Made by a program: the position numbers and the translations under genes
Shown: positions 8,273-38,053 of the stretch, piece after piece
Numbering within the stretch: the first letter of the stretch is position 1
How the letters are laid out: every line of letters begins with the position of its first letter
The notes under the pieces: generated by a model
Told to the model about the DNA's origin: nothing
What the model saw: only the letters and a program-made list of their open reading frames with translations
Database searches by the model: none
Assembly: GCA_017645905.1 (NCBI GenBank)
Contig: JAGCNO010000026.1
Span: 1-45,541 of the forward strand
DNA length: 45,541 bases
Direction of reading: 5' to 3'
From: Prevotella sp.
GTDB lineage: Bacteria > Bacteroidota > Bacteroidia > Bacteroidales > Bacteroidaceae

Positions 8273-8360
8273 AGAAAGAACGGCTTATTCCCATAGAAAG
8301 AACGGCTTTTTCTACCAGAAAGAACGGCTTATTCTCATAGAAAGAACGGCTTTCTCTCTG
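8273..8360 (+). repeat. 22-bp tandem array A (four units)
   Basis: Four consecutive 22-bp units start at 8273, 8295, 8317 and 8339. Each carries GAAAGAACGGC near its start, followed by a T-rich half (TTATTC or variants), with about five variable bases at the unit boundary. The array lies between two convergent genes, downstream of both. Arrays B, C and D belong to the same family. Confidence 0.95.
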
Positions 8361-8396
8361 TAGGGCATTTACTATGTCTTAAAGACCAGGCCCTTT

Positions 8397-8444
8397 GTAA
8401 CAGACACTATGTTACGTCTCTTCAGCTGGGATTAAAATCCAGCT
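8397..8444. repeat. Short palindromes at the convergent junction
   Basis: GTAACA and TGTTAC flank a seven-base loop (8397-8415), and AGCTGG...CCAGCT (8424-8444) encloses GGATT/AATCC. Neither has a T tract on either strand, so they look like dispersed palindromes rather than standard terminators. The second one overlaps the stop codon of the acyltransferase gene. Confidence 0.5.
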
Positions 8445-9378
8445 ACACAGTAGCGGTGGGAACAGGCTTCTCTATTACCTTACCGTCAATGACTTCAAAG
8501 CGCTCGTTAAACTCCTCACGGGTGCGCTTCCAGCGGTTATGGCTCCAGAGCCATAGCTCGGGCTGACGGCGGATAGTCTCTTCGAGCATGCGGTGATAGA
8601 TGTCGGTAGGCTCAAACTCGGCCATCTGTTCGGGATGGCGGGTGATAAGGCGGAACTCACACTCATAGTAACCACGGCGCAGACGGCGGATATCGATATA
8701 GACGATGGCCTGATGATTTTTGCGGGCTATGCGCTCTGTGCCCGTCATGACGGGAGTGTCGTGGTTGAGGAACTGACACCAATGGTGAATATTATTCCAA
8801 TGAGGAACCTGGTCGCCGACGTAACCGATGACCGTAGCCTTGCCTTGGCGCTTGAACTCGATGGTCTTGCGAAGAATGTCTGTAAGGGCAATGCTGACAG
8901 CTCCCCAGCGCTGCCGAAGATGAATGAACAGACGGTCGAAAGCCTTGTTCTCCAAAGCGTGATAGAGCTGACCGCACTGGGCTTTAGGACTGACCCACAT
9001 AGGCAGCGAGGCCACCCACTCCCAGTTGAAAGTATGCCCCATGAAAGCAGCCACGGGCTGACCGGCGTCGATGCTCTCGTTGACAATCTCAGCACCCTTG
9101 AACACAATGTGACGACGCATCTGAGCGCGGCTCATGGAAATCATCTTCACCGTCTCTACAAAATAGTCACAGAGAGAGTGATAGAAGCCACGTTCAATCT
9201 GAAGGATCTCCTCGGAGCTCTTTTCAGGGAATGACAACACGAGATTGCCGTGAACAACCGAGCGGCGATAGCCCAGCAGACGGTATACAAAGAAGTATAG
9301 CAAGTCGCTGAACAAATAGTGAATCCTAAAAGGAAGAAGCGACAAAGCGTACCAAAGGGCAAAGAGAAGATAATACAT
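8443..9378 (-). CDS. Lipid A biosynthesis acyltransferase (LpxL/HtrB family)
   Basis: The 311-residue protein has an N-terminal membrane segment (YYLLFALWYALSLLPF) and the family catalytic motif HX4D/E, here His115 to Glu120 in GHTFNWEW. This family transfers a secondary acyl chain to lipid A precursors at the inner face of the cytoplasmic membrane. Length and the conserved C-terminal WLWSHNRWK fit the family. It starts 35 bp after the terminator of the upstream lipoprotein gene, so it may depend on read-through or a compact promoter. Which acyl position it modifies cannot be told from sequence. Confidence 0.88.
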   Translation of the reverse strand: MYYLLFALWYALSLLPFRIHYLFSDLLYFFVYRLLGYRRSVVHGNLVLSFPEKSSEEILQIERGFYHSLCDYFVETVKMISMSRAQMRRHIVFKGAEIVNESIDAGQPVAAFMGHTFNWEWVASLPMWVSPKAQCGQLYHALENKAFDRLFIHLRQRWGAVSIALTDILRKTIEFKRQGKATVIGYVGDQVPHWNNIHHWCQFLNHDTPVMTGTERIARKNHQAIVYIDIRRLRRGYYECEFRLITRHPEQMAEFEPTDIYHRMLEETIRRQPELWLWSHNRWKRTREEFNERFEVIDGKVIEKPVPTATV

Positions 9379-9412
9379 AAGGCCTGAAGAACGTTCCGGA
9401 AAAAAGTGGGGA

Positions 9413-9452
9413 CAGAAAAAAGAACCGGGTCGTGATGCAAGTCACGGCCCGG
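9413..9452 (-). terminator. Terminator after the small lipoprotein gene
   Basis: On the minus strand CCGGGCCGTGA and TCACGACCCGG form a near-perfect stem with a short loop, followed by TTCTTTTTT. This is a standard rho-independent terminator, 9 bp after the lipoprotein stop. Confidence 0.85.
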
Positions 9453-9460
9453 ATAATTAA

Positions 9461-9976
9461 TTAGTTTTCAATCTTAGAAGCTGAGCCGTTAGGTGACGAA
9501 GAGTCACGAACGGTTAGATACCACTGACCATCACGACGAATAGGCTGGAGGTAGAGAGACGTAGTGTAGTCCTTGCCCTCAGCATTACGCGAGAACGTGA
9601 AGTTGAACTTCACCTGACAATCAGTCTCAGTACGGAAGCGGATGCTCTCAAAACGATAGTCCAAGACAGGGAATGTGCGGAAAATCTGCTCCTGACGAAT
9701 AGCCATGTTTCGAGGCAAGGGCACAATACTCGAGTCGGGGTCAAGGTAGTAAAGCATGGCAATAGCATCGGAATACTCCTGATTCTTCAAGTGCTCAATG
9801 AACTCAGTAGAAAGCTGGTCAACGATGATGGTATCCTGAGAGTCGAGCGTCATCGTAGGAAGATTGATATCGACTGCGGTAGTGTCACCACCCTTCTTCT
9901 CGCCTGTGCAAGAGCAAAGGCAAAGAGGAATAGCAATAGCTGCCAGTGCAAGAATTCGAAGGTATTTGTATTTCAT
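9461..9976 (-). CDS. Small lipoprotein of unknown function
   Basis: The start was chosen at 9976 because MKYKYLRILALAAIAIPL gives a proper lipoprotein signal peptide ending in the lipobox LCLCSC. An upstream in-frame ATG at 10030 would place extra residues ahead of it and falls inside the upstream terminator hairpin. The mature part (about 145 residues) has an acidic, Thr-rich linker, then a helix-plus-strand region (STEFIEHLKNQEYSDAIAMLY) that resembles small NTF2/DUF4878-like folds; I cannot assign a function. Flanked by terminators on both sides, so it is probably expressed alone or by read-through from the large lipoprotein gene. Confidence 0.8.
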   Translation of the reverse strand: MKYKYLRILALAAIAIPLCLCSCTGEKKGGDTTAVDINLPTMTLDSQDTIIVDQLSTEFIEHLKNQEYSDAIAMLYYLDPDSSIVPLPRNMAIRQEQIFRTFPVLDYRFESIRFRTETDCQVKFNFTFSRNAEGKDYTTSLYLQPIRRDGQWYLTVRDSSSPNGSASKIEN

Positions 9977-9999
9977 AATGCCTAAAGAGTTAATAATTA

Positions 10000-10036
10000 A
10001 AAGGGGTGCATAACATTGTATGCCATACACCCCTTT
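10000..10036 (-). terminator. Terminator after the 1610-residue lipoprotein gene
   Basis: On the minus strand AAAGGGGTG pairs with CACCCCTTT, followed by TTAATTATTAAC. It lies about 50 bp past the stop codon of the large gene. Confidence 0.75.
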
Positions 10037-10083
10037 CTTAGTTATGAGTTTTGTCCTTTAGCAGGACAGAAACTGTTCAATGA

Positions 10084-13000
10084 TTAGTTGCCGATCGTCG
10101 GGCCAAAGTGAACCTTGATGTAGTTCATGTTGGCGTTGTGGAAGTAACGGTCATTAGTGCGCTGGATGTTAGTTGTCTGCTCCCACTTACCAGTGGTGGT
10201 GATGTCACCCCAAGCATACTTAACAGTCACAGGAATAATGATGTCGAATCCACCGTAGTTGACGAGGTCGTTCGAGTAAGTGAAGGTCGTGCTGACAATA
10301 TTACCGGCAGTACCGAGGGTATGGCTGATGCCAAGACCGTTGATAATGTCATTACGTCCGATGAAGCTCTCACTGCCATGGATGTTGGTCAGCATGTGGT
10401 CAACCATAGGCACAACGTTCATCTCATTCCAAGTGCTGGCGTAAGCGTCAGTGAAGTTCGGAGTGTAGACCCAGTTGTTCCAGTTGTAGAAGGCCTTGTT
10501 AGAGCCACGGTTGAACGAGCTACGATCCTGATCCATGTACTTGAAGCCATTCAGGTAGTTGAATCCATAAGGAGCAGTACGTCTCCAAGGAGCCTGGTTC
10601 CAGTTAGTGGAGGGACGATCGTTGTAGTCACCAGCCTTGGTCTTACCCTGGTAGTACTCAATCCACTCCTTCTGATCCTTCACCTGAGTGTAGTTACGCC
10701 AATCCATCGGGAAGATGCGACTGGGCGTACCAGTCTGGCTGCGGAACAGGTTGGTGTAAGTGATGGTGAAGGTGTTGTTACCAGCCACAGCATCCTCAAC
10801 TGCGTTGATAGCAGCAGTCTGCCAAGGAGTCTGGAACTCGACATTCAGAGGACGCAGGAAGCGAACCACGAAGTCAGGATTGTTCAGCATCACGGGAACA
10901 CCAGCAGGACGGTGGAAGAAGGTATGATACTCGGTCTCGGCGGGCAGGCTGGGACCATCAGCGGGAACATAGTTCATAGGTCCAGAGTAGTGCTTAGCCT
11001 CACCAGTCTGATAGTAGTTGTCAACATAGTCCGGACGAACGATGTAGTCCTGACCAGGATGACGCTCGGTAGCAACGGGGTTGACAGCGAGGATGCAGTC
11101 GCCCTCGAACAGGTTCAGGTGGCAGTGTACACTGAAGGGATTATCAGTAGCCTTGCTGTAACCATCCTGAGTGCCGCCGTTGTTCTCAGCGTAGCGACCA
11201 GCACGGTTGAGCAGATCCTGAGCGAACTTGCTGTTGAAATTGTAGTGAACGTTGACGTTCTCATTCAGACGGCCAGTACGATCGAGGTTAGCATACGGAT
11301 AGCGGCTGTTCTCGGCCTGGTGTGTGTCATAGTTGTCAATCCAAGCGATGAGCTCACCATTCTGCATGTCAAAGTGCGTGTAGTTGTGCACAAGTGCATC
11401 GTCGGAAGTGCGAGGATCACCAGTCTTGTTCTCCCAAGAATCGGTGTAGTCAGCGTGGTTCTCAACATACTTGTAAGCGAAGAGATACTTACCGAGCTTG
11501 CCGATATGGCGCTTGCCAGTAGCCTCCTGAGCCCAAACGACGGTGTCAAGCGGGTTCTTGGTGTAGCAAACCTTGATCAGGTAACGGTCAGCATAGAACT
11601 TGTCGTTCTCCATAGTAACCTTGTGGTCACCACTTTCATCGACGCTTCCAGCAGCAGCACCGTTGTGCCAGTAAGGAGTACCCTCCTCAATGTCACCGAG
11701 CCAGTTCTTGGTGTAGAAGTACAGATCTCCGTGGAGCTCACCGAGCTTAGCCTTCTGGATACCGATGCGCTCAGCAGCATCAGCTGAACCTTCAATCTCA
11801 CTATAGAAGAAGTCGAATGCCTTAGGATTGTTGCTGAGAGAAGCAGCCCAATCATACTTGGTCAGCATCTGCTGCAGATTCATCACGAAGCGACGAACAT
11901 CCTCATTATAAGTCTCACCATTCTTGAAGGCATCAATGTTAGCATTGACGAAGGTCTTCTTACCACCATAGACACCAGCGATGCTGTACCAGCCACCGTT
12001 CTCATTTGTACGGCTTGCACGATCCATAGTAGCCTTGTTCAGGTGAATACGAACCTGGAACCAGATTGTAACCTCAGGCCATCCGTTATGACCAGTATCG
12101 TACAGCTTAGCAGCCACACGGGTATCGCAGTAAGGATAGAAGTCAGCCTCTGAGAGGTAAGCAACCTTGTTGCCCAAACTGTCAAGGTAAACGCCCTCGT
12201 GGTCACGCTTAACGAGCTGCTGCAGCATCTGCTCAGCTGTCATAGTGAGACCAATGAGGTTGGTTGCACGGTGGAGCGGGTCATCGTTGGTGTAGATAAC
12301 ACGACCGTAACGGTCGGGATCAACGAAGCGCTGCTCAGCGTTCGGACGGCCGAGGTACGGGTCATAGATGTTAACATCGCCATTGAGGACAACCTGCGGG
12401 AGAACCCAGTTCTCGGGCTTGCTGAGGTTGACACCGTCAACCCAGTTCTTCTGAGTGTTCACAGTGGGATCATAGGTATTGGTCTTCTTCGTGTAAGGAA
12501 TGTAAACCTGACCTTCGACATACTGTGACTGAGCAATCTCGCTGAAAGCAAGCTCAAGACCATTGACGTTGCGGAGAGCATAGTTCTTAGTGAGCTCGCC
12601 CTCAGAGATGCTCAGACCATAATGCTTGATAGCGTCGAGAATCTGCTCCTCAACCTCGTGCCAGTTGGTCAGAATGGTATCACCAGCGCAGCTTGCATAA
12701 AGGTTAGAATTCTGTGAGGCAATATTGACGTTGAGCACAACGGGATCGGTCTCGTCACAAATCTTGAACTTGATGAAGCCGACAGCAACCAGGTTGTGGC
12801 GAGGATTGTTATCCTTGGCAACAGCCTCCCAGTTCATGTGGTCGGGGTTCCAAGTCATCTCGTCGAGAGTATCGATAAGCTCGATCATCACCAGAGGCTC
12901 GCGGCCGATAGAGCTGCGGCTGGTCTGGGTGCGATCACGCTTTCCGTTTTTAACGAAGTTAGCCTTCAGAAGGTGACCGTCGGCGATGTGGGCATGCTGA

Positions 13001-14916
13001 GACTGATCAGTGTAGTATTTGTTAATGCCCTGAGCTGCCTGAGTAGCAGGATACTCGTAGTTAACGACGGTGTACTTACGCTTGAAGCCAAGGCGCTCGA
13101 AGTCGACGGGAAGGTCGAACTCCTTGTCACCACTGTCATAGTAGTGGTGGAGAGCGTGAACCTCAACGATCTCATCCAGGTCAACAGGAGTTCCATCCCA
13201 CTTCAGAGTGTGAGTGTAAGGATTCTCGATGGCCCAACGAGCCTGACGATAGATGTGCACGATATCCTTGTTGTACTTGGCCTCGCGGGTAGCGTCGTCG
13301 CTTGAAACGTGCTCCTCAGTCCAAGTGTACTGGTTACGATCCATCATACCGCAGTCGGTATCGGCGGGCTTGTCAATGTGAGGATAGGTGTCGTAGTGAC
13401 TGATGGAAGCATCGTTGTCAGCCAGGCAATAGTTGTGCTGGTGAACGCGTGCGATAGCACCCCAGTCAGAAGTAACGGTACGAGTTGTGCCATCAGCTGA
13501 AGGAGCTGTAGCCTCCAGAGAAACAACAGTTACCTGACCAGCGCAAGGGCTTCCGTACATCTCTATACGGTGCCACATGTCGGGGCTGTTGGTGAAGTAA
13601 GCGTGGAGGAGACCATTCTCAACGTTGTAAATCTCCGGTCCGCAAACATCAAGAGCGAGGTCGACAGAGTTCTTCTCGGCACGGGTCTGAGTGGTGTTGA
13701 CATAGTTACGATCCTCAGTGTTGAGGGCGATAGTACCGATCTCAGCACGTGTGAGGTGCTTCGGGTTGATGTGATAGTAAGCATCGATAACAGGATACTT
13801 GTAGATCAGATCGTTCTTCGGAGCATACTCGTAAGTGATGTCATAAGCGTTGGTAGAAGTGCGGGCATAACCTGCATTCTCCTGGCTGCGCCAATCAGTG
13901 GTCTTGGCAGGATCGTAGTCGTTCTGCAGTGCGTTCTCGTCGCCGGCATGTTCAGCGTTGTACTCGTCATCGGCGTAATAGATAGAGAAACCGAGTGGCT
14001 GGTACACACCGTGGATAGCCTCGACAGCCTCGATACCACCGTAGTACAGGGTGGGTTTCAGAACGAGGCTTGTGAGAGCGTTGTCAACGAATACGTTCAG
14101 CGTGCTCATGTTAACGCTGGCGTTGTCGATACGGCCCTTAGTGTCATTGATCTGAGCCTGCATGTCATTCAGGCGGGCATTGATTTCGCTAATGCTGTTG
14201 GCATTTTCGTCAATCTTTGCCAGAGTAGCCTGAAGGTTGCTAACAGCATTCTCTGCCTCAGCAATCTTCTCGTCAATCATAGCCATCACGCTCTCTTCGC
14301 TAAGGAAAGCGAGCTTAGAAGCCATTTCGGCCTTGAAGCTGTTGATGACATTCTGCTGGCTTTCGATGTCAGAACGGAGAGCCTCGATAGCCTCGATAGC
14401 TTCCTTCTTGTTGCTCTCAACCTGTCCCTTCAGAGTAGCGACTTCTGCGATACCCTCAGTGAGCTGGTTGAGGTTGGTGTCGATAGCGTCGATGCGTCCG
14501 GCAACCTTAGCGATCTCGGTGTCGAGAGTCTTCTGGTCAACCTTACCATCGGCGATAGCCTTCACGTCATTGATGGCCTTCTGGAGCTCATCAATAGTGC
14601 TCTGCAGGGCAGCGGTCTTAGCGAGAGCCTCGACAGCTTCCTTAGCCTCCTTAGCCACAGCGTTTGCATCTGCACCGTTCTTTGTGGCTTCCTCAGCGGC
14701 CTTAACAGCCTTGTCGGCAGCAGCCTGAGCAACTGCGAGCTCTGACTTAGCATTGTTCAGAGCATTCTGAAGGCTGGTCACCTGACCTTGAAGGACGGAG
14801 GCGTTCTGCTCGATTTTAGCGATGTCGCCGTCATAGTCCTTACAAGACTGGAACGAGCCTACGGCAGTAATAAACATTGCTGCCATAAGCAACTTACTGA
14901 AAAATTGTTTTTTCAT
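10084..14916 (-). CDS. Very large surface lipoprotein with N-terminal coiled coil
   Basis: The start at 14916 (MKKQFFSKLLMAAMFITAV) gives a lipoprotein signal ending in SFQSC; an ATG four codons upstream is an alternative. Residues about 30-290 are a long heptad-rich coiled coil (Ala, Glu, Ile, Asn). The remaining 1300 residues are Tyr/Asn/Asp/Trp-rich with no motif I recognise. The CKDYDGDI start followed by a coiled coil resembles the N-terminal segment that some databases call 'PL29 lyase N-terminal', but no lyase domain is evident. Codon use is strongly biased to C-ending Tyr and Asn codons. With a strong promoter, a long leader and its own terminator, this looks like an abundant outer-surface structural protein, possibly S-layer-like; that role is inference. 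Confidence 0.85.
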   Translation of the reverse strand: MKKQFFSKLLMAAMFITAVGSFQSCKDYDGDIAKIEQNASVLQGQVTSLQNALNNAKSELAVAQAAADKAVKAAEEATKNGADANAVAKEAKEAVEALAKTAALQSTIDELQKAINDVKAIADGKVDQKTLDTEIAKVAGRIDAIDTNLNQLTEGIAEVATLKGQVESNKKEAIEAIEALRSDIESQQNVINSFKAEMASKLAFLSEESVMAMIDEKIAEAENAVSNLQATLAKIDENANSISEINARLNDMQAQINDTKGRIDNASVNMSTLNVFVDNALTSLVLKPTLYYGGIEAVEAIHGVYQPLGFSIYYADDEYNAEHAGDENALQNDYDPAKTTDWRSQENAGYARTSTNAYDITYEYAPKNDLIYKYPVIDAYYHINPKHLTRAEIGTIALNTEDRNYVNTTQTRAEKNSVDLALDVCGPEIYNVENGLLHAYFTNSPDMWHRIEMYGSPCAGQVTVVSLEATAPSADGTTRTVTSDWGAIARVHQHNYCLADNDASISHYDTYPHIDKPADTDCGMMDRNQYTWTEEHVSSDDATREAKYNKDIVHIYRQARWAIENPYTHTLKWDGTPVDLDEIVEVHALHHYYDSGDKEFDLPVDFERLGFKRKYTVVNYEYPATQAAQGINKYYTDQSQHAHIADGHLLKANFVKNGKRDRTQTSRSSIGREPLVMIELIDTLDEMTWNPDHMNWEAVAKDNNPRHNLVAVGFIKFKICDETDPVVLNVNIASQNSNLYASCAGDTILTNWHEVEEQILDAIKHYGLSISEGELTKNYALRNVNGLELAFSEIAQSQYVEGQVYIPYTKKTNTYDPTVNTQKNWVDGVNLSKPENWVLPQVVLNGDVNIYDPYLGRPNAEQRFVDPDRYGRVIYTNDDPLHRATNLIGLTMTAEQMLQQLVKRDHEGVYLDSLGNKVAYLSEADFYPYCDTRVAAKLYDTGHNGWPEVTIWFQVRIHLNKATMDRASRTNENGGWYSIAGVYGGKKTFVNANIDAFKNGETYNEDVRRFVMNLQQMLTKYDWAASLSNNPKAFDFFYSEIEGSADAAERIGIQKAKLGELHGDLYFYTKNWLGDIEEGTPYWHNGAAAGSVDESGDHKVTMENDKFYADRYLIKVCYTKNPLDTVVWAQEATGKRHIGKLGKYLFAYKYVENHADYTDSWENKTGDPRTSDDALVHNYTHFDMQNGELIAWIDNYDTHQAENSRYPYANLDRTGRLNENVNVHYNFNSKFAQDLLNRAGRYAENNGGTQDGYSKATDNPFSVHCHLNLFEGDCILAVNPVATERHPGQDYIVRPDYVDNYYQTGEAKHYSGPMNYVPADGPSLPAETEYHTFFHRPAGVPVMLNNPDFVVRFLRPLNVEFQTPWQTAAINAVEDAVAGNNTFTITYTNLFRSQTGTPSRIFPMDWRNYTQVKDQKEWIEYYQGKTKAGDYNDRPSTNWNQAPWRRTAPYGFNYLNGFKYMDQDRSSFNRGSNKAFYNWNNWVYTPNFTDAYASTWNEMNVVPMVDHMLTNIHGSESFIGRNDIINGLGISHTLGTAGNIVSTTFTYSNDLVNYGGFDIIIPVTVKYAWGDITTTGKWEQTTNIQRTNDRYFHNANMNYIKVHFGPTIGN

Positions 14917-15092
14917 ACAGTTAAACATTTAAAATTAATAAAAAAATTAAGTAGTTAATACATCAGTTGATTTTCTTTCTTTCTCTATACATCTTTTCTC
15001 TATCTATGTTTTCATCTTCTATCCCCCATTTATTATTCCGGCCAAGTGTTTCTGCATGTGAATTGATGCCTTTACGGCTGGCTCACAAGCGC

Positions 15093-15109
15093 GTCTCTGG
15101 CGCGGAGAC
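15093..15109 (-). promoter_or_regulatory. Stem-loop at the 5' end of the large lipoprotein leader
   Basis: GTCTC and GAGAC flank a seven-base loop about 8 bases downstream of the predicted transcription start. Hairpins at an extreme 5' end often stabilise mRNA; that role here is inference. Confidence 0.4.
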
Positions 15110-15123
15110 ACGATTTTTGGGTG

Positions 15124-15155
15124 CAAATATAGACATATTTTTGGTATCGTGCAAA
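15124..15155 (-). promoter_or_regulatory. Promoter of the large lipoprotein gene
   Basis: On the minus strand TATATTTG (15124-15131) lies about 20 bases after TTTGC (15151-15155), matching the Bacteroidota -33/-7 pair. The predicted start near 15117 leaves a leader of about 200 nt before the ATG at 14916. The 296-bp gap between asnS and this gene holds this promoter, the leader stem-loop and the asnS terminator. Confidence 0.8.
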
Positions 15156-15188
15156 TATTTTTAAGGTTTTTTTCAAAAATCTATAAAA

Positions 15189-15212
15189 AAAATACGATAA
15201 ATGGGGTATTTT
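15189..15212 (-). terminator. Likely asnS terminator
   Basis: On the minus strand AAAATAC and GTATTTT flank a ten-base loop, and the run continues into TTTTTT. It starts 13 bp past the asnS stop. Confidence 0.65.
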
Positions 15213-15224
15213 GATACTTTTTCC

Positions 15225-16685
15225 TTAGAAATCGGCCGTTTTGGGGGTTCTTGGGAAGGGTATCACGTCGCGTATGTTTTGCATGCCTGTAACGAAGAGA
15301 ATGAGTCGCTCAAAGCCGAGTCCGAAACCAGCGTGGGGGCATGAACCGTAACGTCGTGTATCGAGGTACCACCAGAGTTTGTCGGTCTCCATGTTTCGTG
15401 CATTGATTTCTGCCATGAGTTTGTCGTAGTTTTCCTCACGGACTGAGCCGCCGATGATTTCTCCGATTTGCGGGAAGAGGACATCGGTGCCCTGCATGGT
15501 GGGGCCGGGTGCGACGGTGCCACGGTATCCGATGGATGAGCCTGCCTCAGCGGAAACGTTCTGCTTCATGTAGAAGGCTTTGATGGCCGAGGGGTAGTCT
15601 GTCATAATGACGGGCTTCTTGAAGTGCTGTTCGACGAGGTAGCGTTCGTGCTCAGATGCAAGGTCGTCGCCCCAGTTGCAAGGGAACTCGAACTTGTGAC
15701 CGTTCTTGATGGCTTCCTGGAGGATTTCGATGCCCTTGGTGTAGGGCAGGCGCACGAATTCAGTGCCGATGACGGATTTCAACCGGTCTATGAGGCTCTT
15801 GTCAATCATCTGGTTGAGGAAGGCGAGGTCGTCCTGACAGTTGTCGAGTGCCCACTGTACACAATATTTAATAAAGTCCTCCTCGAGGTCCATCAGTTCC
15901 TCCTGGTCCATGAAGGCGACCTCGGGCTCAATCATCCAGAACTCGGCGAGGTGTCGAGGTGTGTTGCTGTTCTCGGCACGGAAGGTAGGGCCGAAGGTAT
16001 AGATGGCTCCCAGTGCTGTGGCGCCGAGTTCACCCTCGAGCTGTCCGGAGACGGTAAGCGATGTCTGCTCTCCGAAGAAGTCATCGTCGTAGATGATCTT
16101 TCCCTGCTCGTCCTTCTTCAGGTCGTAGAGGTTCTTTGTGGTGACCTGGAACATGTTTCCTGCTCCCTCGCAGTCGCTGGCGGTGATAAGCGGAGTGTGG
16201 AAATAGAAGAATCCGTGGTCGTGGAAGTACTTGTGAATGGCGATGGCCATGTTATGGCGTATACGCATCACGGCTCCGAAGGTGTTGGTACGCAGTCGGA
16301 GGTGTGCGTTCTTGCGCATGACCTCGAAGCTCTGGCCCTTCTTCTGCATGGGATAGGTGTTGTCGCAGAGTCCAAGTACCTCTATCGAGGTGGCCTGGAT
16401 TTCGGATGGCTGTCCTGCAGCGGGGCTTTCCACGAGGGTTCCGCTAACAGCGATGCAGGCACCTGTGGTGACGTCCTTGAGGGAGGGGGCAGCAACAGTG
16501 TTGCTGCATAGCTGACAAGCGTCGGGGTCTACCACTATCTGGACATTCTTAATGGTGGATCCGTCGTTGAGGGCAATGAAGTCTACGGCCTTGCTTGAGC
16601 GGTGGGTACGCACCCAGCCCTTCACGCAGACTGCTTTTCCATATTCTGTGCTTTTCAGCACATCAACTATCTTTGTTCTTTTCAT
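15225..16685 (-). CDS. asnS: Asparaginyl-tRNA synthetase
   Basis: Charges tRNA-Asn with asparagine in the cytoplasm. An N-terminal OB-fold anticodon-binding domain ([22 protein letters not shown]) is followed by a class II catalytic core: [20 protein letters not shown] (motif 2 region) and [22 protein letters not shown] (motif 3). At 486 residues it is slightly longer than typical bacterial enzymes. The segment after FYMKQN reads [19 protein letters not shown] before [14 protein letters not shown], where most enzymes have a shorter stretch. Last gene of a probable purB-rluB-asnS unit, 80 bp after rluB. Confidence 0.97.
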
Positions 16686-16731
16686 TTCATCAGACCTTAT
16701 TAATTGTTTAAGTAGGAAGTCTGCGCTTGTT

Positions 16732-19569: not shown

Positions 19570-19659
19570 GTACTAAAAAAGGACACGGAGCATATTTGGG
19601 TCCGAAAATTAATATTTTTTAATACTTTGAGATATGGAGTTTGAACCGTTCATTGATTT

Positions 19660-19760
19660 AGAAAGAACGGCTTATTCGAATTGAAAGAACGGCTCTTTCT
19701 CATGGAAAGAACGGCTTATTCGATTTGAAAGAACGGCTTATTCAAATCGAAAGCGCTCGG
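19660..19760 (+). repeat. 22-bp tandem array B (four units plus a partial)
   Basis: Units start at 19660, 19682, 19704 and 19726, each with GAAAGAACGGC, and a degenerate partial follows at 19748. Unit boundaries read TTC, five variable bases, GAA (for example TTCGAATTGAA and TTCTCATGGAA). The array lies upstream of the purB promoter, with the GAAAGAACGG strand opposite to purB. A degenerate, oppositely oriented copy (TTTGAACCGTTCATT) lies just left of it. Confidence 0.95.
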
Positions 19761-19803
19761 CAACAAAGGAGATGCTTGCGTAATGAAATGGAGCAAGAAC
19801 GTC

Positions 19804-30002: not shown

Positions 30003-30093
30003 GAGATTGCTACGTTCTATCTGGGAGATTGCTACGTTCTATCTGGGAGATTAATACGTTCAATCTGAGAGATTGCTACGACCTTTCTGGGAG
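30003..30093 (-). repeat. 22-bp tandem array E (second sequence family, four units)
   Basis: Units start at 30003, 30025, 30047 and 30069. The first two are identical, beginning GAGATTGCTACG and ending ATCTGG; the others differ at a few positions. The reverse complement (AGATAGAACG...ATCTC) aligns with the arrays A-D unit (AGAAAGAACG...TTCTC) at about 14 of 20 positions. It lies between two divergent promoters. Confidence 0.93.
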
Positions 30094-30177: not shown

Positions 30178-30185
30178 TACCTTTG
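30178..30185 (+). promoter_or_regulatory. GT2 gene -7 element
   Basis: TACCTTTG, 72 bp before the chosen start. The leader would include the 7-bp-period tract at 30224-30251. Confidence 0.65.
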
Positions 30186-30223
30186 CAGCGTATTATGGAT
30201 GGGAACGTCCCCGTCTGCCACCT

Positions 30224-30251
30224 AACAACCAATAACCAACACCCACCACTT
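30224..30251. repeat. 7-bp-period tract upstream of the GT2 gene
   Basis: AACAACC, AATAACC, AACACCC, ACCACTT: four loosely related heptamers ending 6 bp before the start codon. Confidence 0.6.
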
Positions 30252-30257
30252 AGAAGT

Positions 30258-30998: not shown

Positions 30999-31000
30999 GA

Positions 31001-31068
31001 GAGGTGAGGGGTGGGAGGAATGTTCTGCCACGAAGGTAACCTCTCACTCCTCACTCCCCAACTCCTTA
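31001..31068. repeat. Inverted 7-bp-period tracts between GT2 and nadC
   Basis: GAGGTGAGGGGTGGGAGG at 31001-31018 faces CTCTCAC, TCCTCAC, TCCCCAA and CTCCTTA at 31041-31068. The two sides are partly complementary and could form a bidirectional hairpin between these convergent genes. The right side runs into the nadC stop codon. Confidence 0.65.
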
Positions 31069-31920
31069 ACAAGCCTTGAAGCTCATGTCAAGGCCTTTCA
31101 CGCTGTGGGTCAATGCGCCCACGGAGATGAAGTCCACGCCCTGCTCGGCATAGTCGCGGATGGTGTCGAAGGTGATGCCGCCGCTGGACTCTGTCTCGTA
31201 ACGGTGGCCGATCAGCTTCACGGCCTTACCCGTGTCGGCAACGGAGAAGTTGTCGAGCATGATGCGGTCTACACCACCGTGGTCGAGCACCTGCTGCAGC
31301 TCGTCGAAGTTTCTGACCTCAATCTCAATCTTCAGGTTCTTGCCCTTCTCCTCTAAGTACTTGTGGCAGCGGTCGATGGCATTGGTGATGCCGCCGGCAA
31401 AGTCCACGTGGTTGTCCTTGAGCAGGATCATATCGAAGAGCCCGATGCGGTGGTTCGTTCCGCCTCCAATCTTCACGGCCGCCTTCTCCAGCATGCGCAT
31501 GCCAGGCGTGGTCTTGCGGGTGTCGAGCACTCGGGTGCCGGTGCCCTTCAGGCGCTCCACGTAGCGGGCTGTCATGGTGGCGATGCCGCTCATGCGCTGC
31601 ATGATGTTCAGCATCAGGCGCTCCGTCTGAAGCAGCGAGCGCACGCGGCCGGTGACAATCATAGCCACATCGCCGGGCTTTACGTGAGTGCCGTCGCCCA
31701 TGAGCACCTCGACCTGCATCTCGGGGTCGAAGCGGCGGAACACTTCTTTGGCCACCTCCACGCCGGCCAGGATGCCCTCTTCCTTGATTAACAGCCGCGA
31801 CCGGCCCATCGCATCTTCGGGGATGCAGCACAGGGTGGTGTGGTCGCCATCGCCGATGTCCTCGGCAAACGACAGGTCGATGAGCCTGTCTGTCAGTTGT
31901 CTGATTTCTTCCTCTTTCAT
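31066..31920 (-). CDS. nadC: Nicotinate-nucleotide pyrophosphorylase (carboxylating)
   Basis: Makes nicotinate mononucleotide, CO2 and pyrophosphate from quinolinate and PRPP in de novo NAD synthesis. Family features: EDIGDGDHTT near the N-terminus, RVLDTRKTTPGMRMLEKAAV, KIGGGTNHRIGLFDMILLKD and VDFISVGALTHSVKGLD. The 284-residue length is normal. nadA and nadB are not in the window. A good promoter lies about 200 bp upstream, placing array C inside the leader. Confidence 0.97.
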   Translation of the reverse strand: MKEEEIRQLTDRLIDLSFAEDIGDGDHTTLCCIPEDAMGRSRLLIKEEGILAGVEVAKEVFRRFDPEMQVEVLMGDGTHVKPGDVAMIVTGRVRSLLQTERLMLNIMQRMSGIATMTARYVERLKGTGTRVLDTRKTTPGMRMLEKAAVKIGGGTNHRIGLFDMILLKDNHVDFAGGITNAIDRCHKYLEEKGKNLKIEIEVRNFDELQQVLDHGGVDRIMLDNFSVADTGKAVKLIGHRYETESSGGITFDTIRDYAEQGVDFISVGALTHSVKGLDMSFKAC

Positions 31921-31986
31921 AGTTCGCTTTATACTTAACGGTTCATACTGTTATACGTCTACATCCGTCCCAAAAAGAGGCCTCGG

Positions 31987-32074
31987 AGAAAGAACGGCTT
32001 TTTCCCATGGAAAGAACGGCTTATTCGATTCGAAAGAACGGCTTATTCTCATGGAAAGAACGGCTTATTCTCAG
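31987..32074 (+). repeat. 22-bp tandem array C (four units)
   Basis: Units start at 31987, 32009, 32031 and 32053, each with GAAAGAACGGC. Boundaries read TTCCCATGGAA, TTCGATTCGAA and TTCTCATGGAA. The array lies between nadC and the flotillin gene, within the predicted nadC leader. Confidence 0.95.
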
Positions 32075-32118
32075 AGCCTGGTTTTCAAGGGCTTTTCAGA
32101 GATTGCGTTTTGTGACTG

Positions 32119-32149
32119 CAAATATAAGGTTTTTACCCGAAATGGCAAA
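32119..32149 (-). promoter_or_regulatory. nadC promoter
   Basis: On the minus strand TATATTTG (32119-32126) follows TTTG (32146-32149) by 19 bases. The leader to the nadC ATG is about 190 nt and contains array C. Confidence 0.75.
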
Positions 32150-32241
32150 ATAATTCGCCAAAAAATTCTTATAACCATGCACTATGAGCCATACACTATG
32201 TTAAACACTGTAAATGTCTTGGCCAGGTCTAAGAAAATCCG

Positions 32242-32249
32242 TACATTTG
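32242..32249 (+). promoter_or_regulatory. Flotillin-obgE -7 element
   Basis: TACATTTG, 38 bp before the start, preceded by TTGG 19 bases upstream. The 367-bp gap between nadC and this gene holds array C and the two divergent promoters. Confidence 0.65.
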
Positions 32250-32287
32250 CTTTCTGATTCATGTATAACCATTAAAAAACCATCACC

Positions 32288-33778
32288 ATGATTGATCCAA
32301 TGTATCTCTACATCGCAGCGGGTGTCATCCTGCTGTTCGTATTCATCTTCATCTCTTACGTGAAGGCTCCGCCCTCGTTTGCCTACATCATCTCCGGCCT
32401 GTCTAAGGAGCCACGCGTGCTCATCGGCTCCGGCGGATTCCGCATCCCGTTCTTCGAGCGTATGGACCGCGTCTACTTAGGACAAATCACCGTCGACATC
32501 AAGACGGAGGAGAGCGTCCCCACGAACGACTTCATCAACGTCGACGTCGATGCAGTGGCCAAGATTCGCGTCACGCCCAACAACGAGGGTACGCGTCTGG
32601 CTGCGAAGAACTTCCTGAACATGACGCCCGACCAGATAGCCAACCAGCTGCAGGACTCGCTGCAGGGTAACATGCGTGAGATTATCGGTACGCTCGACCT
32701 GCGCTCGCTCAACACCGACCGCGACGGTTTCTCCGACCAGGTGATGCAAAAAGCACAGCCCGACATGGCCAAGCTGGGCATAGAGATTATCTCGTGTAAC
32801 ATCCAGAACGTGACCGACCGCGAGGGACTCATCAAAGACCTCGGTGCCGACAATACAGCCAAGATTAAGAAAGACGCTGCCATCAATCGTGCTGTGGCCG
32901 AGCGTGACGTAAAGATTGAGGTGTCGAAGGCCGACAAGGACAGTAACGATGCCCGCGTCGATGCCGACACCGCCATCGCCGTGAAGAACAATGAGCTGGC
33001 CCTGCGCCGAGCAGCCCTGAAAAAGGAGGCCGACACCGCTCAGGCCGATGCCGATGCTGCCTACGCCATCCAGCAGCAGGAACAGCAGAAGACCATCAAC
33101 GTCAAGACCGTCGAGGCCGAGATTGAGAAGACGAAGCGCGAGCAGATTCTTTCAAAGGAGCAGATTGAAATCAAGCAGAACCAGCTGGCCGCCGAGATTG
33201 AGAAAAAGGCCGATGCCGACAAATATAAAGTGGAACGCGATGCTGCCGCCGACCTGGAACAGCGCAAGCGCGTAGCCGAGGCTCAGAAGTACGAGGCCGA
33301 GCAGCGTGCATTGGCACAGAACGCCGAGTCAGATGCCGTACGCTACCGTTTGGAGCAGGAGGCCATCGGTATCAAGGCCAAGGGTGAAGCCGAGGCTTAC
33401 GCCATCCAGAAGAAAGGTGAGGCCGAGGCTCTCGCTATGGACAAGAAGGCCGAAGCTTACAAGAAGTACAACAACGCCGCCGTGATGCAAATGATGATTG
33501 AGGTGCTGCCGCAGGTCGTTGAGAACGTGGCCAAGCCCATCGCCTCCATCAAGGACGTACACGTCTACAGCGGCGGACAGGACACCGGCGCCGGCGTGGC
33601 CTCGATGAGCGGCGGCGTGCCCGTAGCCATCAAGCAGGCCTTCGACGTGCTGAAATCAGCCACCGGCGTAGATATGGCCGACATCATGCGTGCAGGAACC
33701 ATCGATGCCAAGGTGACCCGTAACGTCAACCTTAACGACCAGGCACGCGATGCCGTGGACAATATTCTCGGTAAATAA
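32288..33778 (+). CDS. Flotillin-family (SPFH) membrane protein
   Basis: One N-terminal membrane segment (MYLYIAAGVILLFVFIFISYV), then an SPFH domain (about residues 30-200) and a long Ala/Glu/Lys coiled-coil region (about 205-400, with repeated KGEAEA motifs) and a Gly-rich tail, as in flotillins FloT/YqiK. These form ring-like membrane scaffolds. The NfeD partner that often neighbours flotillin genes is absent here. obgE follows after 6 bp, so the two are probably co-transcribed. Confidence 0.93.
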   Translation: MIDPMYLYIAAGVILLFVFIFISYVKAPPSFAYIISGLSKEPRVLIGSGGFRIPFFERMDRVYLGQITVDIKTEESVPTNDFINVDVDAVAKIRVTPNNEGTRLAAKNFLNMTPDQIANQLQDSLQGNMREIIGTLDLRSLNTDRDGFSDQVMQKAQPDMAKLGIEIISCNIQNVTDREGLIKDLGADNTAKIKKDAAINRAVAERDVKIEVSKADKDSNDARVDADTAIAVKNNELALRRAALKKEADTAQADADAAYAIQQQEQQKTINVKTVEAEIEKTKREQILSKEQIEIKQNQLAAEIEKKADADKYKVERDAAADLEQRKRVAEAQKYEAEQRALAQNAESDAVRYRLEQEAIGIKAKGEAEAYAIQKKGEAEALAMDKKAEAYKKYNNAAVMQMMIEVLPQVVENVAKPIASIKDVHVYSGGQDTGAGVASMSGGVPVAIKQAFDVLKSATGVDMADIMRAGTIDAKVTRNVNLNDQARDAVDNILGK

Positions 33779-33784
33779 TTTGTT

Positions 33785-34972
33785 ATGGAATCAAATTTCG
33801 TAGATTACGTTAAGATACAGTGCCGCTCGGGTAAGGGCGGAAGGGGCTCCATGCACCTGAAGCATGTGAAATACAACCCTAACGGCGGACCCGACGGCGG
33901 CGACGGCGGCAAGGGCGGCAGCATCATCCTGCGCGGCAACCATAACTTCTGGACGCTGCTCCACCTGCGCTACGAGCGCCACATACGAGCCGAACACGGC
34001 GGCAACGGCGGCAAGGACAAGTGTCACGGCACCGACGGCAAGGATGTCTACATCGACGTGCCCTGCGGAACGGTGGTCTACAATGCCGAGACGGGCCGCT
34101 ACGTTTGCGACGTAACCTACGACGGACAGGAAATCGTCTTGCTCAAGGGAGGTCGCGGCGGACTGGGAAACTTCCAGTTCCGCTCGGCCACCAACCAGGC
34201 TCCGCGCTATGCACAGCCTGGTGAGCCGGCACAGGAGATGACCGTCATCATGGAACTGAAACTGCTGGCCGACGTGGGACTCGTGGGCTTTCCCAATGCG
34301 GGAAAGTCAACGCTCGTCTCCAGCCTGAGCAACGCCCGGCCTAAGATAGCCAACTATCCCTTTACTACTATGGAGCCCTCACTGGGCATCGTCGGTTACC
34401 GCGACAACAAATCGTTCGTCATGGCCGACATTCCCGGCATCATCGAGGGAGCGGCCGAGGGTCGCGGCCTGGGGCTGCGCTTCCTGCGACACATCGAGCG
34501 TAACTCTCTGCTGCTCTTCATGGTGCCGGGCGACACAGACAACATCTGCCGCGAATACGAAATCCTGCTTGGCGAACTGGAGAAGTTCAACCCCGAGATG
34601 CTGAAGAAACACCGTGTGCTGGCCATCACGAAGTGCGACCTGCTCGACGCGGAACTGGAAGCAATGCTGCGTGAACAATTAGAGGCCGACATGGCCGCCA
34701 AGGGTCTGGAGCCGCTGCCCATCGTGTTTATCTCAGCCGTCACGGGCTATCATCTCGACGAACTGAAGGATGTGCTCTGGGCAGAGCTTAACGCCGAGAG
34801 CAACAAGCTGCAGGCCATCACCGCCGAGGATACCCTTGTACACCGAGACAAGGACATGAGCATCTTCCTACAAGAACTTGCTGACGAAGGCGAGGAAGAA
34901 GAACTTATCGACGAGGAAGAAGAGGAAATCGAAGAGCTCGACGACTTCGAGTACGAGGACGAGGAGGAATAA
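33785..34972 (+). CDS. obgE: GTPase Obg/CgtA
   Basis: Ribosome-associated GTPase involved in 50S maturation and stress control. The N-terminal Gly-rich Obg domain ([20 protein letters not shown]) is followed by the GTPase domain: GFPNAGKST (G1), [16 protein letters not shown] (G3), TKCDL (G4). The C-terminus is a highly acidic tail (about residues 370-395), common in this family. The length of 395 is normal. Second gene after the flotillin. Confidence 0.97.
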
Positions 34973-34984
34973 TAACGGAAGAAA

Positions 34985-35050
34985 CGGAAATAAACGGAAT
35001 AACGGAAAAGTCACTTGATGCGAACCTTTCCGTTATTCCGTTTATTTCCG
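34985..35050. terminator. Bidirectional terminator with a perfect 24-bp stem
   Basis: The arms 34985-35008 and 35027-35050 are exact reverse complements with an 18-bp loop, between convergent obgE and the S41 protease gene. Each arm is itself built from about 9-bp repeats of ACGGAAnn. The short A/T runs at the inner ends make it a plausible terminator both ways. Confidence 0.8.
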
Positions 35051-35061
35051 ATTATTCCGAT

Positions 35062-36630
35062 TCAAAGACTCAGAATCTGCAGTGCCTTTTGCACAATGTC
35101 GTTCTCCTCGTTAAAGATGGAGAAATACTCGTTCATGTCCCACAGGTCGCGGGCAATGAGTGCCTTCAACTGCAATTTAAGGTACGGCATTGTCTTGTCG
35201 CGTTCGGCATCGTCGCGAGGCTTCACATTCTGTTTCTCGCCCTCGGCTATGATTTTGTCAATAAGCTCCTGCGGAATCTCAAACTCCTGCTTATACTTTT
35301 CGAACGAAGGATAAACCTTCTTCAGCTCCTTGCGGTGCTGGTCCACATAGCGCAGGTTCTGCTGTATGATGACACTCTTGGCCGCCAGTTCGCGGTGATA
35401 GCGCGTATAGCGTGTGGTGTCCAACGGCACGAACACGTCGGGCGTGATGCCGCCTCCGCCGTAGACGGTGCGGTGCTTCTTCAGCGTCTGGAACTTCAAT
35501 GAGTCAGCAAAGTGTATGCTGTCCGCGTTGGTCAGCTCGCCGCTGTTCAGGCGGTCTACGAGGTCGTGGTCATAGCCCCTTTTGTTTCCCTTCTCGTAAG
35601 GCTTCTGGATGCACCGCCCGGAGGGAGTATAATAATGTGCTACGGTGAGGCGAATCATCGAGCCGTCGGGCAAATCGATGGGCCGCTGTACGAGGCCCTT
35701 GCCGAAGGTACGCCGTCCCACGACGGTGGCGCGGTCATGATCCTGCAGGGCGCCGGTAACGATTTCTGCTGCCGAGGCCGAGAACTGGTCGACGAGCACC
35801 ACCACGCGGCCCTCGGTGAAATGTCCGTTACCCGGAGCATGATACTCCTGACGGGGCACGCGCCGTCCCTCGGTATAGACGATGAGGTCGCCCTGACTCA
35901 GGAATTCGCCGGCCATCTCAGCCGCAGCCTGCAGATAGCCGCCGCCGTTCTCCTGGAGGTCGAGGATGAGGCTCTCCATGCCCTGCTGACGAAGGGTTTC
36001 CATGCTCTCGAGGAACTCCGTATAGGTCGTGGCCCCAAAGCTACCCACGCGAATATAGCCTATCGTAGGACGTATCATGTAGGTGGCATCGATGGAGTGC
36101 ACGGGAATCTTGTCGCGCACCACGTCGAAGCGCAGCGTGTCGCGTATGCCCTGCCTGACCACCTTCAGACGAGCCAACGTTCCCTTCGGCCCGCGCAGGC
36201 GCCGCATGATTTCCTCCTTTGACATTTTCACGCCGGCAATAGTGGTGTCATTGACGCCCACGATGCGGTCGCCAGCGATGATGCCGACCTTCTCCGACGG
36301 GCCGTTAGTGACGGGCTGGATGACCATGAGCGTGTCCTCCACCATGTTGAACTGCACGCCGATGCCCTCGAACGAGCCGTTGAGCGGTTCCGTCATCTGC
36401 TTCGTCTCCTTGGGAGTGGTGTAGCTGCTGTGGGGGTCGAGTTTCTCGAGCATACCGCGTATGGCATCCTCGGCGAGCTTGTTGTCGTCGACCTCGTCGA
36501 CATAGATGCTGCTGATGGCAACCTGTGCCATCTGCAGTTTGCGCATGGCTTCCTCCTGAGGTTTGGAAAACTGAGCCGAGGCCTGAAGAGCCACAGCTAT
36601 GAGGGCGGATAGAATAAGGGTTCTTTTCAT
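35062..36630 (-). CDS. S41 carboxy-terminal processing protease (CtpA/Prc family)
   Basis: A signal peptide (MKRTLILSALIAVALQASAQ) supports the start at 36630 rather than the upstream ATG at 36684. A PDZ domain (GIGVQFNMVEDTLMVIQPV, AGDRIVGVND; about residues 80-170) precedes the S41 domain with Ser286 in FSASAAE and Lys311 in TFGKGLVQ as the Ser-Lys dyad. These periplasmic proteases trim or degrade protein C-termini. The C-terminal region (about 430-522) is helical. Monocistronic. Confidence 0.95.
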   Translation of the reverse strand: MKRTLILSALIAVALQASAQFSKPQEEAMRKLQMAQVAISSIYVDEVDDNKLAEDAIRGMLEKLDPHSSYTTPKETKQMTEPLNGSFEGIGVQFNMVEDTLMVIQPVTNGPSEKVGIIAGDRIVGVNDTTIAGVKMSKEEIMRRLRGPKGTLARLKVVRQGIRDTLRFDVVRDKIPVHSIDATYMIRPTIGYIRVGSFGATTYTEFLESMETLRQQGMESLILDLQENGGGYLQAAAEMAGEFLSQGDLIVYTEGRRVPRQEYHAPGNGHFTEGRVVVLVDQFSASAAEIVTGALQDHDRATVVGRRTFGKGLVQRPIDLPDGSMIRLTVAHYYTPSGRCIQKPYEKGNKRGYDHDLVDRLNSGELTNADSIHFADSLKFQTLKKHRTVYGGGGITPDVFVPLDTTRYTRYHRELAAKSVIIQQNLRYVDQHRKELKKVYPSFEKYKQEFEIPQELIDKIIAEGEKQNVKPRDDAERDKTMPYLKLQLKALIARDLWDMNEYFSIFNEENDIVQKALQILSL

Positions 36631-36653
36631 GTTGTCCAGTTTTTTGTGGGGTG

Positions 36654-36661
36654 CAAAGTTA
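36654..36661 (-). promoter_or_regulatory. S41 protease -7 element
   Basis: On the minus strand TAACTTTG, 24 bp before the start codon; CTTG lies at about the -33 distance. The leader would be very short. Confidence 0.65.
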
Positions 36662-36700
36662 CACCTTTCTACCCACACGGGCAAGAAAAAAGGCGAAAAT

Positions 36701-36732
36701 TTTGGCCATTCCCGGAATTATGAGTAATTTTG
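36701..36732 (+). promoter_or_regulatory. nrnA-like gene promoter
   Basis: TTTG (36701-36704), 20 bases, then TAATTTTG (36725-36732), a very good match. The start would be near 36739, giving a leader of about 150 nt that contains the 40-bp inverted repeat. Confidence 0.8.
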
Positions 36733-36759
36733 CGCCTCAAAATGATTGAATATTATTAG

Positions 36760-36869
36760 TACTGACCCCACCCCTGCCCCTCCCCTACAAGGGAGGGGAT
36801 AGGTTATCGCTGACGATATGCGCAGCAGCTCCCCTCCCTTGTAGGGGAGGGGCAGGGGTGGGGTCAGTA
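36760..36869. repeat. Perfect 40-bp inverted repeat in the nrnA-like leader (BIME-like pair)
   Basis: The arms 36760-36799 and 36830-36869 are exact reverse complements with a 30-bp spacer. Each arm has its own inner hairpin (CCCCTCCC, CTACAA, GGGAGGGG). Same family as the two pairs in mfd. Confidence 0.97.
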
Positions 36870-36890
36870 ATTTCAAACCTATTATATATA

Positions 36891-37931
36891 ATGTTGAAAG
36901 ATATTATCACCAGCGAGCAGGCCAACGTGCTAACAGATATCATACGTGAGAGCGAAACCATCGTGTGTGTGTGTCACCAGAATCCCGACGGCGACGCCTT
37001 AGGTTCGTGCTTAGCCTTGGCCGAGCTGCTGCGCACCGTCTACGGCAAGGAGCCCCAGGTCATCGTGCCCGACCAATACCCCGACTACCTGCAATGGCTG
37101 CCCAACAGCGAGAAGATCATCCGCTACGACAAGCACCGCGAGGGCTGCGACTGGACACTGGCCCACGCCGACCTCATCTTCTGCCTCGACTTTAACACCG
37201 CCTCGCGCACGGCCGACATGGAGAGCGCCCTATATGCTTCTCCCGCAAAGAAAGTCCTCATAGACCACCATCTCGACCCCGACGTGGAGACACTCGTCAC
37301 CGTCTCGCGGCCACAGGCCAGCAGCACCTCAGAGCTCGTCTTCCGCCTTGCCTGGCAATTAGATTGCTTCGACCAGCTGGGCAAGCACTTCGCCGTGCCC
37401 GTCTACTGCGGCATGATGACCGACACAGGTGGCTTCACATACAACAGCAGCGACCCCGACATCTATTTCATCATCTCGCAGCTGCTCACGAAGCGCATCA
37501 ACAAGGACAAGATCTACCGCAACGTCTACCACACCTTCTCGGAGAACCGTCTGCGACTGACGGGCTTTGTGCTGTACAATCGGCTCGTTGTCGACGCTAT
37601 GCGCCACGCCAGCTATTTCACCCTGTCACGCGATGACCTGCGCCGCTTCCATTTTATGAAGGGCGATGCCGAGGGCCTTGTGAACATGCCGCTGCAGATG
37701 AAGGGCCACCGCCTGAGCATCTCCCTGCGCGAGGACACGGAGAAGGACAACCTCGTGTGGGTGAGCCTGCGCAGCGTAGACCAGTTCCCCTGCAACGAGA
37801 TGGCCGCCCAGTTCTTCAACGGCGGCGGACACCTCAATGCCGCAGGCGGCCGCCTCTACTGCTCCCTGACCGAAGCCGTAGCAGTTGCGGAGAAGGCCAT
37901 CAAGGCCTTCGAGGACAAGCTGAAGTATTAG
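36891..37931 (+). CDS. DHH/DHHA1 phosphoesterase (NrnA-like oligoribonuclease)
   Basis: The DHH motif is at residues 125-127 (LIDHHLDPD) with an upstream HQNPDGDALGS, and the C-terminal DHHA1 domain has FNGGGHLNAAGG. NrnA-type enzymes degrade short RNA oligonucleotides and dephosphorylate 3'-phosphoadenosine 5'-phosphate. The start at 36891 (MLKDIITSEQANV) avoids the inverted repeat just upstream, where an earlier in-frame ATG (36858) falls. Length 346 fits the family. The closely related pApA/c-di-AMP phosphodiesterases cannot be fully excluded, although the GdpP membrane and PAS parts are absent. Confidence 0.9.
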   Translation: MLKDIITSEQANVLTDIIRESETIVCVCHQNPDGDALGSCLALAELLRTVYGKEPQVIVPDQYPDYLQWLPNSEKIIRYDKHREGCDWTLAHADLIFCLDFNTASRTADMESALYASPAKKVLIDHHLDPDVETLVTVSRPQASSTSELVFRLAWQLDCFDQLGKHFAVPVYCGMMTDTGGFTYNSSDPDIYFIISQLLTKRINKDKIYRNVYHTFSENRLRLTGFVLYNRLVVDAMRHASYFTLSRDDLRRFHFMKGDAEGLVNMPLQMKGHRLSISLREDTEKDNLVWVSLRSVDQFPCNEMAAQFFNGGGHLNAAGGRLYCSLTEAVAVAEKAIKAFEDKLKY

Positions 37932-37965
37932 AAACAGGCTTACCGGAAGCGCCAATTAAGCCCCT

Positions 37966-38053
37966 CCAGACTTTGAACCGCTCTTTCAATTCGAATAAGC
38001 CGTTCTTTCGATGGGAAAAAGCCGTTCTTTCAATTCGAATAAACCGTTCTTTC
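37966..38053 (-). repeat. 22-bp tandem array D (four units)
   Basis: Same family as arrays A-C but reversed: units end in CCGTTCTTTC on the plus strand, at 37966-37987 (degenerate), 37988-38009, 38010-38031 and 38032-38053. It lies between the nrnA-like gene and purD, about 65 bp upstream of the purD -7 element, with the GAAAGAACGG strand opposite to purD. Confidence 0.95.

Follow-up and report, generated by a model that had tools for sequence, protein, structure and literature searches.

What is the role of short tandem arrays that recur at one fixed pitch in several gaps between the genes of a bacterial chromosome? The question is raised by a stretch of 45,541 bp from Prevotella sp. (assembly GCA_017645905.1, contig JAGCNO010000026.1; the whole stretch is referred to here as the window), for which a preliminary description made from the sequence alone had listed four arrays of 22-bp units, A to D. 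In the third of the genome of the window (G000; 3,401,236 bases in 181 contigs, 87.5% complete) that was read, arrays of this family were found almost always outside genes, in both orientations and evenly spaced, at about one every 10 kb. The explanation that we favour, and hold only tentatively, is that a dimeric DNA-binding protein uses them as platforms to mark or organise chromosome segments of about 10 kb.

In the window, the motif GAAAGAACGGC with at most one mismatch was matched 16 times against 0.78 expected, a number that none of 100 shuffles reached, and 15 of the 16 matches fell inside the four arrays, at exact 22-bp steps. The arrays are placed as follows:

8274..8361, forward strand: array A, four 22-bp units with exact cores; spacers CCATA, TACCA, TCATA and, at the end, CTCTGT
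19639..19660, forward strand: a decayed additional unit on the left side of array B
19661..19748, forward strand: array B, four 22-bp units with exact cores
31988..32075, forward strand: array C, four 22-bp units with exact cores, in a divergent gap
37966..38053, reverse strand: array D, four 22-bp units, one of them decayed

None of the four lies inside a long open reading frame (ORF) of the window; array A starts 20 bp after the stop codon of the ORF at 5764-8253, and array D follows that of the ORF at 36858-37931 by 34 bp. The four intergenic sites of the preliminary description are therefore real, with the coordinates of arrays A to C one base off, and the TTC-N5-GAA symmetry that it had noticed at the unit junctions is present. 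Its count of four units per array stands for A to C, whereas in array D three units are good (37988-38053; one core mismatch in the outermost) and the fourth, GAAAGAGCGGTTC at about 37966-37987, is decayed.

Over the whole genome, pairs of cores at a 22-bp pitch, with up to two mismatches, were found 371 times on one strand and 340 times on the other, and a reversed control gave none. A sample of 1,167,176 bases (34% of G000) was read in 56 stretches including the window, the first 20 being picked from contigs in the list of matches and the later ones mostly by contig number. An unbiased scan of lags 12 to 39, with short-period repeats excluded, placed 94 tandem arrays at lag 22, whereas the other lags had 0 to 5 apiece (5 at lag 21, 0 at lag 23). 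Each unit consists of GAAAGAACGGCTTWTTC followed by five variable bases, and its 17 fixed bases form an imperfect dyad around a central G. The number of units per array (n = 90) is most often four (48 arrays), with five units in 15 arrays, two in 14, three in 11 and six in 2. Only 5 of these 90 arrays overlap a gene predicted by a simple codon-usage caller, which was written for the analysis and is not an annotation; four of the overlaps are at the 3' end of the gene and one is inside it. Exclusive pitch, near-constant copy number and intergenic location, all first read from four arrays, thus hold for the family.

The even spacing of the arrays is a new result that the preliminary description had not foreseen. 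With close neighbours merged (89 arrays), the 57 distances between neighbours on the same stretch had a mean of 9,976 bp, a coefficient of variation (CV) of 0.44 and a minimum of 4,147 bp; none was below 4 kb and two were below 5 kb. When the same numbers were placed randomly in distinct intergenic gaps, the CV was 0.74 and a mean of 13.9 distances fell below 4 kb, with at least five in each of 1000 draws. Seven further nulls (2000 draws each), in which the length of the array itself was removed and the smallest gap and the weighting were varied, gave means of 8.5 to 17.9 such distances and no draw as regular as the observed set; the one with gaps of at least 300 bp omits stretches with too few gaps, and simulates 42 distances instead of 57. 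The first 35 distances and the 22 added later agree in having none below 4 kb. Units are found within 150 bp of only 3 of 94 contig ends, so the regularity is not a product of contig breaks. When 22-bp arrays of any sequence were taken together, the 105 arrays gave 69 distances with a CV of 0.41, two of them below 4 kb. The 12 arrays of other sequence lie at a median of 7.1 kb from the nearest main array (null 5.0 ± 1.0, p 0.028), two of them closer than 4 kb against 4.6 expected (p 0.065), and several of the longest gaps of the family contain decayed or other-dialect arrays (contig C16 near 40,970, C17 near 13,400 and C23 near 109,440). Such even spacing fits a site that works at the DNA level.

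Heptamer tandem repeats (periods 7, 14 and 21), which are abundant in the gaps of the sampled genome, served as a control from the same sequence and were not evenly spaced (CV 1.10, 9 of 19 distances below 4 kb); the two other controls, the GCGCTCGG element and AATTCTC palindromes, gave four distances and one, too few to judge. The richness of Prevotella gaps in heptamers would suit neutral slippage in which the repair or replication machinery determines the pitch, and so would the gain or loss of units at both array sites shared with a related genome (three against four units, and four against about two). Slippage, however, gives no reason for one core at hundreds of sites, leaves unexplained both the abrupt preference for 22 over 21 or 23 and the even spacing, and is contradicted by the lag scan and by the spacing nulls, which makes it extremely unlikely as an explanation.

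The gaps that contain arrays are co-directional in 52 cases, divergent in 25 and convergent in 6, compared to 146, 75 and 26 in the background, with no orientation preference. Arrays lie on the same strand as the co-directional genes in 30 cases and on the opposite strand in 22, and consecutive arrays share a strand in 30 cases and differ in 27. Of the 52 co-directional gaps, 46 have the array on the side of the upstream stop codon (medians 71 versus 217 bp), as if start regions were avoided. This closeness to stop codons, together with the dyadic units, is what would be seen if the arrays acted in the transcript, as hairpins that terminate it or stabilise mRNA 3' ends. Nevertheless, the arrays are indifferent to strand and show no orientation bias, which speaks against a role as RNA or terminator. 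Convergent gaps are not in excess (6/83 against 26/247), TTATTC or another change interrupts the dyad in half of the units, arm covariation is weak, and terminators would not be held 4 kb apart. A search of the window against Rfam found one tRNA and no other match. A role at the transcript level is very unlikely.

As a set, the arrays look more like a chromosome-wide marker or organiser than random repeat clutter. In the favoured explanation, each array would offer one homodimeric DNA-binding protein three to five operators side by side, with one dimer per 17-bp dyad, and the pitch of two helical turns would bring all the dimers to one face of the DNA, where they could bind jointly. Cooperative binding of dimers on a single face would agree with the two-turn pitch, the dyad and the copy number, and a role requiring one site in each segment would agree with the even spacing. 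Platforms about every 10 kb, outside genes and in both orientations, could mark or organise segments of that size, possibly through bridging of neighbouring platforms or through loading of a topology or segregation factor. Supercoil domains in Escherichia coli are also near 10 kb, and REP clusters bind gyrase. The preliminary description had likewise proposed a protein sitting on one face of the DNA, and its interpretation is partly supported.

Several results weigh against the platform explanation. No protein binding the arrays was identified, and the dyad in G000 is imperfect, about a third of the units reading TTATTC, which breaks it. Covariation of the arms was not significant over distinct arm pairs (1.56 against 1.32 ± 0.16, p 0.10), the values over all 312 units being 2.40 and 2.34 ± 0.015. 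In the distant congener G241 the arrays are spaced more widely, at 16-32 kb, and in 15 other congeners (291 kb) two arrays were found at lag 22 against four at lag 24, so that 22 is not the commonest lag there. Two very short stretches (340 and 1,001 bp) were dropped from the lag scan of the congeners. The comparison with the close relative G313, whose aligned blocks are 78-92% identical to G000, points the same way. Six of the 101 22-bp arrays in the stretches have both flanks in the G313 sequence that was fetched, and none of these six sites is conserved: five of the gaps are without any array, and in the gap orthologous to that of array B an unrelated 22-bp repeat is present in about four to five units. 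At the site of array C, 77 bp separate the aligned blocks in G313, compared to 277 bp in G000. As G313 also holds only about five arrays of the main family, chromosome upkeep in this group of bacteria cannot depend on the array set.

In the reverse direction, both of the G313 family arrays tested (2/2) lie at sites common to G000, and differ between the genomes in unit number as given above. Therefore, the family is older than the split, and was either expanded in G000 or lost in G313. The preliminary description had named random copy numbers, frequent location inside genes and no conservation at orthologous sites as the outcomes that would speak against it; copy number is non-random and arrays are rarely in genes, whereas conservation failed for the G000 sites and was seen for the two from G313. 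At one shared array (L187/L126; G000 contig C140 near 24.4 kb, G313 contig C121 near 45.0 kb), a run of some 180 bases spanning gap and gene start is nearly identical in a locus otherwise about 85% alike, and a recent exchange next to the array is possible on this comparison.

A stricter pattern of unit pairs, searched in 398 genomes of the genus, gave 624 matches in G000, 8 in G313, 5 in G241 and none in the other 395. No pair of cores was found in 118 other genomes of the order, and viral contigs gave no exact match to the pair pattern. Named species genomes gave at least eight stretches, all from CAJOOC01, JAFVFY01 and JAGCNQ01 among the matches listed, and the array places in G313 are the same as in JAFVFY01 (Prevotella sp. 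RGIG5135). The source assemblies among the matches listed are of Prevotella sp. or Bacteroidaceae bacterium, with titles naming rumen, sheep abomasum or yak reticulum; this recurrence in independently named assemblies led us to reject an assembly artefact. The 120 kb of G241 contain five arrays, with 4, 4, 3, 5 and 4 units of a near-perfect 17-bp palindrome, GAAAGARCCGTTCTTTC, at the same 22-bp pitch, so the dyad noticed in the window is almost perfect in this congener. Further congeners have fewer 22-bp arrays (one in 160 kb of G024, none in 80 kb of G016), and the 22-bp habit is therefore not universal in the genus; Tandem Repeats Finder, run on a sample of 19 genomes, assigned period 22 to 7 of 13 arrays. 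A second 22-bp dialect within G000, with arms AGTTTCC and GGAAACT (C16:11542, C48:1921, C62:43292 and C65:14982), resembles the GGAAACAGTTTGTTTCC units of G313.

The arrays turn over fast, with unit sequences specific to each lineage. It is conceivable, though doubtful, that they represent a fast-evolving class of chromosome-spacing elements in which the architecture is fixed (22-bp pitch, about four units, 17-bp dyad, one array per about 10 kb) and the sequence is not. Each lineage would use a dialect, and presumably a co-evolving protein, of its own, and the same gaps would be taken over by unrelated dialects, as at the site of array B.

Even spacing could also be produced by target immunity of a mobile element. 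In the strongest rival, the arrays would be a minisatellite-like parasite, similar to a miniature inverted-repeat transposable element (MITE), moved by a transposase that does not insert close to a copy already present (target immunity), with the number of units set by unequal exchange and no function for the host. Such an element explains the explosive expansion in one lineage seen with the strict pattern, the empty sites at five of the six loci in G313, where the insert reaches 25-45 bp past the units, and, through immunity, the 4-kb minimum. The ends are not random (TCNGA at 12 of 90 left ends, TC[CT][AG][AG] at 27 of 90 right ends) and hint at a short inverted end. It does not explain, however, the lack of whole-array copies. 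Across the 57 strict arrays, spacers at equal positions coincide at about the rate of shuffled sets (145 of 3,828 against 134.6 ± 9.5), so the arrays are not copies of one another, whereas duplicates within one array are frequent (24 of 166 against 6.0 ± 2.2). Apart from the weak end motif, the flanks are unrelated among the 57 arrays listed; target duplications were not obvious in the G313 alignments, inspected by eye; and no Y1 transposase scored above the cut-off in the assembly. Moreover, decayed and other-dialect arrays tend to keep their distance too, which sequence-specific immunity would not enforce. We consider a mobile element unlikely, yet a serious candidate.

The precedent for a mobile minisatellite is BrickBuilt of Porphyromonas gingivalis, which PMC4596501 presents as a minisatellite inside a MITE. 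BrickBuilt belongs to the same phylum, is intergenic, and has a gapless short tandem unit with a variable second half (23 nt there, 22 bp here); as here, units are gained or lost between strains and empty sites are found in relatives. According to the same paper (PMC4596501), it has 19 copies of 1 to 22.8 units with leader and tail regions, in contrast to the roughly 90 arrays of the sampled third of G000, with 2-6 units instead of a widely varying number, a short end preference in place of a shared leader or tail, and even spacing.

Lineage-specific dialects are also known from the DNA uptake sequences of Neisseriaceae and Pasteurellaceae, present in hundreds of copies and in both orientations, for which a 'significant even spacing' was reported by Karlin et al. 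(as cited in PMC1939737; see also PMC7811141). The arrays could be self-DNA marks of this kind (as in Neisseria and Haemophilus), accumulated through biased uptake or exchange, an idea to which the dialects, the even spacing, the position of arrays near upstream stops and the near-identity beside the L187/L126 array would all conform. Uptake sequences, however, are described in that source as single, short, non-palindromic motifs about 1 kb apart, 35-65% of them in reading frames (PMC1939737), whereas the arrays are tandem sets of four, mostly dyadic, intergenic and spaced ten times more widely. Self-DNA marking therefore seems improbable.

Other known systems also differ from the arrays. The REP/BIME elements of enterobacteria are short imperfect palindromes repeated outside genes, often after genes, with a proposed DNA-level role involving gyrase. 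The unit of the arrays is likewise an imperfect palindrome, but the arrays are direct repeats at one pitch and are evenly spaced. A RAYT/REP system was rejected: PF01797 gave one match of 20.7 bits, below the cut-off of 23, in an assembly that is 87.5% complete, and 5 of 14 control genomes were positive. Plasmid iterons are direct repeats of about 17-22 bp with a pitch near 22 bp and cooperative binding on one face; they are found at one origin beside a rep gene, whereas the 22-bp arrays are spread over the whole chromosome. A CRISPR array was also rejected, since each unit varies over 5 bp, with a limited repertoire of sequences (66 kinds among 161), instead of carrying unique spacers of about 30 bp. 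The arrays do have the regular distribution along the chromosome that is expected of nucleoid or domain markers. A literature search found no description of this 22-bp element, which does not show that none exists; as BrickBuilt, REP/BIME and uptake sequences each lack, or differ in, a defining property, the earlier statement that no named element has this pattern was fair.

Interspersed repeats of bacteria tend to be written off as scattered or parasitic. A set that holds to one pitch and copy number, with at least 4 kb between neighbours over the sampled third of the genome, would offer a sequence-level handle on chromosome segmentation in Bacteroidota or, alternatively, the plainest example in bacteria of insertion immunity that can be read straight from a genome. 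In either case, the dialect differences between sister lineages supply natural controls.

Within the arrays, the spacers are seen in either orientation with respect to the core (symmetry score 62 against 36.4 ± 5.2). New unit types seem to arise within arrays, as some of these combine units with different central bases. Intrinsic curvature was rejected: wedge models gave 1.054 for 117 four-unit windows, 1.037 for shuffled sequence and 1.059 for other intergenic DNA, and the AA-wedge model gave 1.076, 1.031 and 1.063, respectively, so that the arrays do not exceed ordinary gaps in bending.

Two further repeats lie close to the arrays of the window:

30003..30093, no strand assigned: a fifth 22-bp tandem array of other unit sequence, about four units of GAGATTGCTACGTTCTATCTGG
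19749..19800 (right end approximate), forward strand: start of another interspersed repeat (GAAAGCGCTCGGC..GACGCTTGCG..), which adjoins several 22-bp arrays

The first lies 2.0 kb from array C, and no other two of the 22-bp arrays measured are as close together. An interspersed repeat, GAAAGCGCTCGGCGACGAAGGAGACGCTTGCGTAATGAAATGGAGCAAGAAC (L031 8183, L045 12649, window 19749 and others), often abuts or splits an array unit, and its centre is present in 14 copies in 1.17 Mb. Short AATTCTC(N0-4)GAGAATT palindromes, with 12 copies in 1.17 Mb (L047 about 3313, L049 about 5741 and others), are found on both flanks of several short arrays. A long MITE-like inverted repeat (CTGACCCCACCCCTGCCCCTCCCCTACAAGGGAGGGG and its complement) at 36761-36868 lies just in front of the gene at 36858, and the arms of the repeat match many places in G313. 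Finally, the end of the gene at 5764-8253 (about 8086-8253) encodes two dockerin-like calcium-binding repeats, DVNRDGTVDVADISAIISVM and DVNGDGSVDVADVSSVITIM; this region matches several dozen places in G313, where many proteins may share the dockerin-like stretch.

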